From the NCBI RefSeq assembly GCF_000413315.1, contig NZ_KE340297.1, forward strand, positions 1,500,599 through 1,564,598: a stretch of DNA of 64,000 nucleotides, read 5' to 3'. The position numbers were made by a program, and so were the translations under genes. How positions within the stretch are numbered: position 1 is the first letter of the stretch; the number at the start of each line of letters is the position of its first letter. The stretch comes from Propionibacterium sp. oral taxon 192 str. F0372. GTDB taxonomy: Bacteria > Actinomycetota > Actinomycetes > Propionibacteriales > Propionibacteriaceae. Under the pieces are notes generated by a model. That model worked only from the letters and a program-made list of their open reading frames with translations, had not been told where the DNA came from and did not search any database. Shown here piece by piece: positions 49,317-52,063 of this stretch.

Positions 49317-50074
49317 CTACTCACAGGCCGAGAATCGTTGAACAACCTTGGGGATTCGCTCAGCCAGCCATTTCCGGTGTTCGGGAAGTACCTTCAGCAG
49401 GTCGCTGACCTGCTCCCAGGCCTCGGGGAGGCAAGCAGCCACCGCATCGACGGCCTCCCGGGTGGCGTCTACCGGGGCGCCCACGCGCTGGGCCAAACGG
49501 TAGAACGAATGAGGACCAATAGACTCGAAGCGCCTGGAATGACAAAGTTTCAGGCCAAAATCTTCCATCTCTATGAGGCGATGAGGTGCGGTGGACACTA
49601 AATCGTAGGCGGGCGAAATCACCGGGCGCCGGGGGTTCCGATAGATCAGGGAGATGTTCTTCAGATGCATGTCACCGTTGCCGATGACAAAACTGAAAAA
49701 TAATCTCCATATAAACTCCAGGTAGGAGTCCAGATCTTGGCGACGGAAGACGAGGGCGGCCGCTGTCTCGAACGAACCCTCGTACTTGCGCTCCGGGTAG
49801 AAGTCGCGAACCTGAGCAAGGTCCTCCATATGGATGCGTCGCGCGCCATCCACTCTCTGAGCCTGCCTTCCGGCAGCAGATTCGAGAACCAAGGCGGTAG
49901 ACGCAGGGCAGATGATACTTGCTTGTCGGGGTAATTCTCGAACCGCAGTCCCAGCACCGGTCGGTCCGGATCCTCCCAGTAGTCCTCCTGCCACTCCAGC
50001 CACGTGTAGTCCCCTCGGGCAAACAGGTGGGCCACCGTCTGGCCTTGGAGGTTGACACGGAATGCCTCGGTCAT
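49317..50074 (-). pseudogene. HipA-family kinase with internal deletion and frameshift
   Basis: The N-terminal piece (from ATG 50074: EAFRVNLQGQTVAHLFA, then LPPWFSNLLPEGRLREWMARD) is HipA-like. It then runs into another frame that starts at RRIHMEDLAQV and carries the kinase C-lobe: FVIGNGDMHLKN (catalytic Asp and metal Asn) and ISPAYDLV. About 150-200 residues expected between them, including the glycine-rich ATP loop and the phosphate lysine, are missing at about 49820-49840. The kinase cannot be active. The start overlaps the DUF262 stop by one base, so it is the second gene of that operon; no HipB gene is present. Confidence 0.8.
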
Positions 50075-51747
50075 CAGTGGTCCTCCTGCGGCGGTTCTGG
50101 CTCTTGCGAGTAGTCATCAAGGTTCAGGGAATCCAACGGTGGGGAGTCATCCAGGCCCTGGCCCGTCTTCAGGGTCAAGAAGTCGTCAATCGCCTTCTGC
50201 AGCTTGGCTTCCCGTGCGTACACCATCTCGCTCGGATCGCCGAGTTCACCGAACAGGTGAGACTCTCGCACAATCGGATCCCAGTTCTCTGGAGTCTGGA
50301 CCACTTCCAAAGGGATGCCCGGCATCAGCGCCCGATTCGCTAGCGAGTTGCTGAGTTGCTCCGGCAGCTTCCCGTGCGGAAAAACCTCGGGGCAGGCAGG
50401 CCGAGGAGTGGAGTTCCTGCCGATCTCTTGGGAAAGATCGTCTCCCGAGAAGGCTTCCTTCGTGTCGGGAGACAGGGGCCTTTGGGCCCACAGAGCACAC
50501 AGCATGACGTGTCCCGAAGCCCGGTTGGTTCTGAAACTATTTGCCTGAGGAAAGGACAATGGCTTGTCGCTGACAGAATCTAAAAGCCGCTGTACTGAAG
50601 CATCCTCTTCACCTGCCCGAATGTATGCGGCCAAGATTCGCACCGCATTCGTGGTGCCGCCGGTGAGAACCGGGCCGATTACCGCCGCGCGCCAGTACCA
50701 GCGTCTCAGTAGCTCCAGATTTCTGGGTGATGGTTTGGGGAAGAGCGCGAAAAAGCGGCTGAGAACGACCAGCAAGAAACGGTAGGCCAGAAAAGTGAAA
50801 TGCGGAACCCCTGATTTTTTCAGAAAATTGATGGTCGCTTCTAGGGAGTCGAAGGTCGCATCATAGGCCTGCTCTTTGGTCTCGTGGGGGAAGTCAGACC
50901 TGCTGATTCGCTCCTTGGTGAATTCCTGGTGGAGATCCCGGTAGGCATCCGATCCTCTGCGTGCGAGGAAGGCTTGAAGGATCGTTTCGGCATCGATGCT
51001 TCCCCAGGACAGTTCGGTCTCAACTTGTTCTTGAATTGATGCTAAAGTGGTGCCCTGATTGGCTACGGAGAATAGGCCGTGAAACGCTTCCGCCCGGGTC
51101 AGGCGCTTTCCGGTGTTATTCATACGGTCGTAGATCTCGCGCAGCATCTGTTCATTCTGCGAGCGGACCAGGTAGGCGGGGACATCGAACTCCCGGAGGC
51201 GCTGCGTGGCGGCGTTGATGTCGTAGATCCGATCGGCATAGGCGGGATGCTCGCTTGCCCAGCGCAGCAGACGTGGTAGATCGAACAAAACCGGCAGGGG
51301 GATGACGTGGTCATCCGATTCGCGACTCTTCTTAGCGCGAACTCGGAGAGGCTCGGAGCGTAGATCGTAGACGAGCGCAAAATCACCATTGAGACCATGA
51401 ACGGGGTCGAACACGTTGAGGAATGTGGTGAGTCGTTGCTGTCCGTCGACGACATATGAGGCATCGGTCATCTCTTGTGCATCAATGGTGACATTGCCAA
51501 GCCGGATGCGCTCGGCGGGCGCAGGACGTACCCAGAACAGGAGGCTGCCGATGGGGAAACCCCGCAGTACGCTGTCGATCAGTGCCACCGCATCGGGGGT
51601 GTGCCAGCGCAGGCCGCGTTGGAAGTGCGGGATTCGCACGGATCCCTCGCGAACCGCTGCGACTAATTTTGCCAACGGATACGTCTGTGCGCTTGGCTCG
51701 GTGAGCAGGCTGGGGCGCGTTTCAGCAGTCGGCATCATCTCATTCAT
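50074..51747 (-). CDS. DUF262 (GmrSD N-domain-type) protein
   Basis: A 557-aa protein. The DUF262 nucleotide-binding motifs are clear: VRIPHFQRGLRWHT near residue 37, FPIGSLLFW near 64 and SYVVDGQQRLTTFL near 95. GmrSD-type enzymes carry a C-terminal HNH (DUF1524) domain; here the corresponding region (about 450-530) has the LSNSLANRALMPG turn but not the usual EHIxP histidine, so nuclease activity is doubtful. GAAGGGGAAG precedes the ATG. It is coupled to the HipA-like gene. Known relatives act in phage defence, which suggests but does not prove a defence role. Confidence 0.75.
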   Translation of the reverse strand: MNEMMPTAETRPSLLTEPSAQTYPLAKLVAAVREGSVRIPHFQRGLRWHTPDAVALIDSVLRGFPIGSLLFWVRPAPAERIRLGNVTIDAQEMTDASYVVDGQQRLTTFLNVFDPVHGLNGDFALVYDLRSEPLRVRAKKSRESDDHVIPLPVLFDLPRLLRWASEHPAYADRIYDINAATQRLREFDVPAYLVRSQNEQMLREIYDRMNNTGKRLTRAEAFHGLFSVANQGTTLASIQEQVETELSWGSIDAETILQAFLARRGSDAYRDLHQEFTKERISRSDFPHETKEQAYDATFDSLEATINFLKKSGVPHFTFLAYRFLLVVLSRFFALFPKPSPRNLELLRRWYWRAAVIGPVLTGGTTNAVRILAAYIRAGEEDASVQRLLDSVSDKPLSFPQANSFRTNRASGHVMLCALWAQRPLSPDTKEAFSGDDLSQEIGRNSTPRPACPEVFPHGKLPEQLSNSLANRALMPGIPLEVVQTPENWDPIVRESHLFGELGDPSEMVYAREAKLQKAIDDFLTLKTGQGLDDSPPLDSLNLDDYSQEPEPPQEDH

Positions 51748-52063
51748 ACTTCCCCTTCGAGCATTCTGGTAGAAAAATCAAAGCCACTGCTCACTCAAAT
51801 GATCGTGATGCAGCCGTGAGAGGCATTCCCATGGTGAATCACCACTATTGTGCAACCCGTTCGTGCAGCGGATCAGCCTCATCAGTCGGATACTGTGACG
51901 TCGGCTGCTTCCACGACCATGCACAAATTTCTAGTACATTGAGGTTCGTCAGTAGGGACTGCTGGGTACCAGGAAGAAATACAGGGACGATGTTCGTCCT
52001 GACGGTCACCGAGTGGGTAACCGTCAGGACGACTTTTTCGCTCGAGTGCGGGGCTTAGCTGCG
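51748..52063. other. intergenic region with an oriented terminator-like hairpin
   Basis: This 316-bp gap is AT-richer than its neighbours. CGTCCTGACGGTCACC (51995-52010) and GGTAACCGTCAGGACG (52016-52031) form a 16-bp stem with one mismatch, followed on the plus strand by GACTTTTT. That orientation does not serve the subtilase, which is on the minus strand; it could end a plus-strand small RNA or block antisense reading. TACATT at 51935 is a possible -10 box. No gene seen. Confidence 0.55.

Follow-up and report, generated by a model that had tools for sequence, protein, structure and literature searches.

DUF262–HipA, an apparently undescribed HipA organization lacking HipB, and its degraded copy in Propionibacterium sp. 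oral taxon 192

A DUF262 gene followed directly by a HipA kinase gene makes up a genuine and recurring two-gene unit without HipB, a widespread and apparently undescribed HipA organization. The copy analyzed here lies in a 64,000-nucleotide stretch of Propionibacterium sp. oral taxon 192 str. F0372 (the window) and is degraded; it is a decayed member of this conserved unit, its kinase inactivated by a deletion and only its DUF262 gene still intact (Table 1). The unit adds to the ten HipA organizations catalogued in a 2021 survey, among which DUF262 does not feature (PMC8262856), and pairs are present in many culturable genera.

The window pair is flanked by MPG glycosylase and subtilase genes, as annotated by Pfam, with no HipB gene beside it. 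Pfam detects GmrSD_N at residues 26–225 of the DUF262 protein (E=7.4e-24), and no DUF1524/HNH domain. The DUF262 stop codon (50074–50076) and the HipA ATG (50072–50074) have a single base in common. The HipA itself is split between frames, with Couple_hipA matching the N part (E=4.6e-10) and HipA_C the C part (E=2.4e-24), and the genome (2.71 Mb) has no HipA_C gene besides this remnant. It aligns to intact relatives of 403–404 aa as two arms, and tblastn of 45 relatives places the deletion where both arms cover the same bases in different frames. Missing are ~150 central codons, among them those for the Gly-rich loop (FSLAGV.LKFS) and the ATP lysine (WIVK); because both are deleted and the frame is lost, the window locus makes no working kinase. 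The original prediction, made from the letters alone, had described a one-base overlap, no HipB-like gene nearby, and a kinase that had lost 150–200 central residues with a frameshift while retaining the catalytic loop GNGDMHLKN. Each of these features was borne out, the loss standing at the lower end of the proposed range.

Table 1. Features of the window DUF262–HipA locus (window coordinates).
Feature	Position	Strand	Description and basis
DUF262 (GmrSD_N) gene	50074–51747	-	557 aa, intact; Pfam GmrSD_N, AlphaFold2 pLDDT 90, BrxU fold match Z 16.3
DGQQR nucleotide-pocket motif	51433–51447	-	aa 101–105 of DUF262 protein; clade residue conservation
ACPEVFPH, site of the HNH/DUF1524 catalytic His (His absent)	50374–50397	-	aa 451–458 of DUF262 protein; profile alignment
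TGATG, DUF262 stop/HipA start overlap	50072–50076	-	sequence reading
HipA remnant, whole	49317–50074	-	ORFs and Pfam
HipA N part, HipS-like N-subdomain	49829–50074	-	residues 1 to ~83; Pfam and alignment to relatives
Out-of-frame extension of HipA N-part ORF	to 49661	-	ORF reading
HipA deletion junction	49829–49850	-	~150 codons and frame lost; tblastn of 45 relatives
HipA C part	49317–49850	-	~residue 230 to stop; catalytic loop and Mg-binding SPAYD; Pfam and alignment
Catalytic loop GNGDMHLKN of HipA C part	49656–49682	-	sequence and motif alignment

The HipA C part contains no stop codon and shares ~64–69% identity with the relatives nearest to it. Measured against these, its dN is 0.28–0.30, compared with 0.19–0.25 among intact copies, and the DUF262 gene shows no excess (0.31–0.39, against 0.27–0.42 among intact copies). 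A stop-free C part with slightly raised dN, next to a DUF262 gene with none, fits a fairly recent break in HipA with DUF262 still conserved. A 39-base near-palindrome at 51994–52032, between the DUF262 and subtilase genes (a self-match on the opposite strand), is probably the terminator of the subtilase gene.

To catalogue the pairing beyond the window, a DUF262 alignment was scanned against 84,980 species and the best 80 loci were kept. At 72 of these 80, a HipA gene lies directly downstream on the same strand; of the remaining eight, five have no HipA and three lie where the contig ends or close to it. No third gene recurs beside the pair across these loci. The first intact pairs were found in another genus of the same family, Propionibacteriaceae (L003), and on two Azospirillum plasmids; the HipA of L003 (G016) has the same sequence as that of Granulicoccus phenolivorans (L101). 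The median spacing between the two genes is -4, and in 64 of 73 intact pairs they overlap or are at most 20 bp apart; HipA is therefore probably translationally coupled to DUF262 in intact copies. A reverse search, free of DUF262 bias, applied a HipA profile to family, phylum and class samples. It yielded 26 clade loci, 25 of them evaluable (one lies at a contig start), and DUF262 is upstream in 25/25. Clade HipAs score at least 440 bits and the next HipAs at most 186 in the family and phylum samples, and the partner of the clade HipA is a GmrSD_N protein by Pfam in 47/47. Moreover, the DUF262 and HipA distance matrices are correlated (r=0.894; 0/1000 permutations as high), a correlation to which shared host ancestry contributes. 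The forward and reverse counts, the tight spacing and this correlation together rule out accidental adjacency. The two genes had been proposed to form one HipB-free unit, and intact pairs indeed recur without HipB well outside the window. Neither outcome that would have spoken for chance, adjacency here alone or relatives that always carry a HipB of their own, was seen. They occur in Actinomycetota, Cyanobacteriota, Pseudomonadota, Myxococcota and Thermomicrobiota, at 7/197 genomes in the family and 17/365 in the class, and one pair is carried by a conjugative plasmid. Comparison with empty sites within the genus met flanks too diverged for alignment.

Intact clade HipAs are ~400–436 aa long, with the N-subdomain fused to the kinase core, and have the HipA fold. 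The key kinase residues (Gly-rich loop, ATP lysine, catalytic and Mg-binding motifs) are invariant in 45/45 intact relatives. Judged by sequence, the intact clade protein is a HipA-family Ser/Thr kinase, of which the window copy lacks the Gly-rich loop and lysine. A HipB profile that matches a HipB-like HTH gene at 46 of 49 other HipA loci, and at 17/17 held out, has no match in the HipB position at any of 92 DUF262 loci, which rules out a hidden HipB near the pair; some HTH ORF lies elsewhere in the locus at nine of the 92. The 77 DUF262-linked kinases group together (SH-aLRT 99) in a tree with HipB-linked and HipT-like kinases of actinobacteria. A plasmid search returned 191 records, mostly rhizobial, with kinases at ~35–42% identity. 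Ten were examined, nine of which are annotated, and all nine have an overlapping upstream HTH gene (~100–200 aa) rather than DUF262. In a joint tree, these HTH-partnered kinases and the DUF262-linked kinases form one clade (support 99), on which the DUF262-linked kinases need one change, the exact branching being poorly supported (28; 65 of 66 rows at 86). The idea that DUF262-linked HipAs stand alone was dropped once the rhizobial plasmid kinases had joined the tree. Since the nearest relatives carry an HTH (HipB-type) gene exactly where DUF262 sits, a single kinase lineage uses two alternative partners in the same slot; DUF262 replaced a HipB, or a HipB replaced DUF262. With an HTH antitoxin and a DUF262 sensor swapped in this way, whether a sensor of restriction type can serve as an antitoxin becomes a matter for direct experiment. 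On a Sulfitobacter plasmid (L233, 866–4715), a sister-group HTH–HipA pair has a multiubiquitin-domain/ThiF gene pair nearby.

The two genes are not lost equally. Mapped onto the DUF262 tree, HipA is missing from five separate lineages and broken in four more with DUF262 kept. This gives ~9 losses or breaks, a small count, and sequencing errors in draft genomes may account for some of the breaks. Among loci found via HipA, the kinase is interrupted or truncated in 4/26 (window, L182, L187 and L189) and DUF262 is broken in 0/25; no clade HipA without DUF262 was seen at loci evaluable in the searched genomes. HipA lost with DUF262 kept, and never the reverse, is the pattern expected of a toxin that needs its partner. 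The earlier suggestion that the broken kinase may betray toxicity thus gains no more than indirect support from these repeated losses. Retention of DUF262 without HipA could also mean that DUF262 has a separate job. Actinobaculum sp. oral taxon 183 carries two separate clade DUF262 genes in one genome (L077 and L097), neither with HipA, and the sister of one of them, in Peptidiphaga (L092), belongs to an intact pair. In Candidatus Thiosymbion (L059, 11517–12569), a lineage far from that of the window, a clade HipA likewise has a central deletion.

The DUF262 protein belongs by likeness with the type IV restriction family of BrxU, GmrSD, SspE and DndI. It has a ParB/Srx-like N domain with DGQQR, and its AlphaFold2 model matches BrxU over the whole length, followed by SspE and DndI. 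Within DGQQR, the D, G, first Q and R are invariant in the clade and the second Q is present in 46/47; the motif forms an NTP pocket, and DUF262 senses modified DNA in several systems (PMC10952713). A full-length profile alignment to HNH-bearing DUF262 proteins (E 8e-37) places their HHLFP motif at ACPEVFPH of the window protein. His is rare at the aligned HNH positions, and 39/47 clade members have none in the stretch. The absence of the HNH histidine, predicted for the window protein, is thus common to most of the clade and not peculiar to this copy. The clade differs from BrxU/GmrSD/SspE/DndI in this missing HNH/DUF1524 catalytic His and in its separate kinase partner; Menshen, Dazbog and PD-T4-2 contain a DUF262 without DUF1524 (PMC10952713). 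The likeness to BrxU and SspE over its length, and the persistence of DUF262 after HipA loss, would suit a system in which HipA regulates a DUF262 effector, phosphorylation of DUF262 switching a type IV-restriction-like activity on or off. We consider this quite unlikely, given that the HNH catalytic His is gone in most of the clade and that the slot is filled in the sister kinases by an HTH protein rather than a nuclease.

We favor as probable a reading modeled on HipA–DUF3037, with DUF262 as both sensor and antitoxin and HipA as the toxic effector. DUF262 is assigned the antitoxin role mainly because the HTH partner occupies the same slot, that is, from position; against this, it has no recognized DNA-binding HTH to account for the autoregulation typical of HipB. 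Intact copies encode a complete Ser/Thr kinase of HipA type behind DUF262, translation of the two being probably coupled, and DUF262, a BrxU/GmrSD relative with a nucleotide pocket and no nuclease His, most likely keeps the kinase inactive. On binding a ligand linked to infection, either a nucleotide or modified DNA, DUF262 would release the kinase, which would then phosphorylate a host protein, probably a component of the translation machinery, e.g. an aminoacyl-tRNA synthetase, so that growth stops. This target class is taken from studied HipA kinases and not from clade data (PMC8262856). More tentatively, and with somewhat less than an even chance in our estimate, the unit may be a type IV-restriction protein turned antitoxin: DUF262 without its nuclease His would sense modified phage DNA or a nucleotide change and free a translation-stopping HipA, with no DNA cutting.

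A precedent for such a system is HipAD (DS-6/PDC-M66), which also comprises two genes and couples a HipA kinase to a non-HipB partner. There, HipA with DUF3037 protects against phage, the kinase is needed, and deletion of DUF3037 is toxic (PMC13092281, PMC12548924). Its partner is DUF3037/DUF1829, and that of the clade is DUF262. The PDC-M66 models found no match at E≤0.01 for any clade kinase or partner tested, and membership is ruled out by the missing DUF3037 partner. Both hipBA and the organizations of the 2021 Hip kinase survey resemble the pair in the HipA fold and motifs and in an overlapping upstream partner gene (PMC8262856). However, an HTH HipB antitoxin adjoins hipA in hipBA and is missing from the clade pair, and in HipBST the N-subdomain is encoded separately as HipS, whereas it is fused to the kinase core in intact clade copies. 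In PDC-M55, a PADLOC candidate related to NsnA/NsnB of Menshen, the DUF262 protein (M55C) is accompanied by an AAA ATPase and M55B. Against PDC-M55C, the window DUF262 protein scores E=2.4e-40 and its relatives reach 1e-62. Models A and B have matches in Paracoccus yeei (L008), and the long DUF262 type of the window clade is also found with an AAA ATPase in PDC-M55. The window pair has HipA in place of both companions, and the absence of an ATPase beside it and of a recurring third gene in the best 80 loci rules out PDC-M55 membership. The ptuXYZ system, comprising DUF262, a PtuA-like ATPase and a BECR RNase, likewise places a DUF1524-free DUF262 in an operon with a TA-type toxin; it differs in having three genes, an RNase as toxin and an ATPase (PMC11980606). 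We found no description of a HipA–DUF262 pairing in the open literature, where the one paper that names both proteins does not link them; the prediction that the pair may be undescribed holds as far as that literature and the 2021 survey go (PMC8262856).

The original prediction also raised the possibility of a defense pair, to be checked by looking for defense genes nearby. Among 111 nearest-neighbor genes, defense families are not enriched and none recurs, and most of the genes are housekeeping, so placement in a defense island is not supported. Because of this, a defense role rests on the analogy with HipAD/PDC-M66, by which the unit may be an anti-phage defense system. Its pairing of a growth-arresting HipA kinase with a relative of DNA-restriction proteins, where the usual antitoxin would be, makes the unit a promising candidate for a novel type of anti-phage alarm that silences itself. 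The scattered distribution, the housekeeping neighbors in place of defense islands, and the pair on a conjugative plasmid would agree with a toxin–antitoxin pair that serves mainly self-maintenance (addiction) or growth control, without phage sensing. Yet in the defense systems studied, DUF262 either senses modified DNA or nucleotides or acts on them (PMC10952713), and a 557-aa antitoxin with a nucleotide pocket would be costly for addiction alone; we regard this reading as credible but unlikely. A non-toxic signaling pair, in which a nucleotide-sensing DUF262 controls phosphorylation of a specific target by HipA in normal physiology, would account for chromosomal sites among housekeeping genes in many genera. 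It seems very improbable to us, as the unit is rare and patchy, repeatedly lost or broken, and also carried by plasmids, which is how cargo modules behave.

A phage-borne origin was likewise considered, and is rejected, as the viral contigs searched contain no DUF262 of the window clade, only distant DUF262s, and the phage records searched no HipA of the DUF262-linked type. Two viral contigs (L197, 3932–5149; L198, 3992–5209) carry wider-clade kinases at the end of phage-like sequence, with neither a DUF262 nor a same-strand ORF of at least 100 aa abutting upstream. The DUF262 loci of three genomes (L040, L049 and L075) have phenylalanyl-tRNA-synthetase-region neighbors in common; as tRNA synthetases are among the known targets of HipA kinases, this may or may not be a coincidence.
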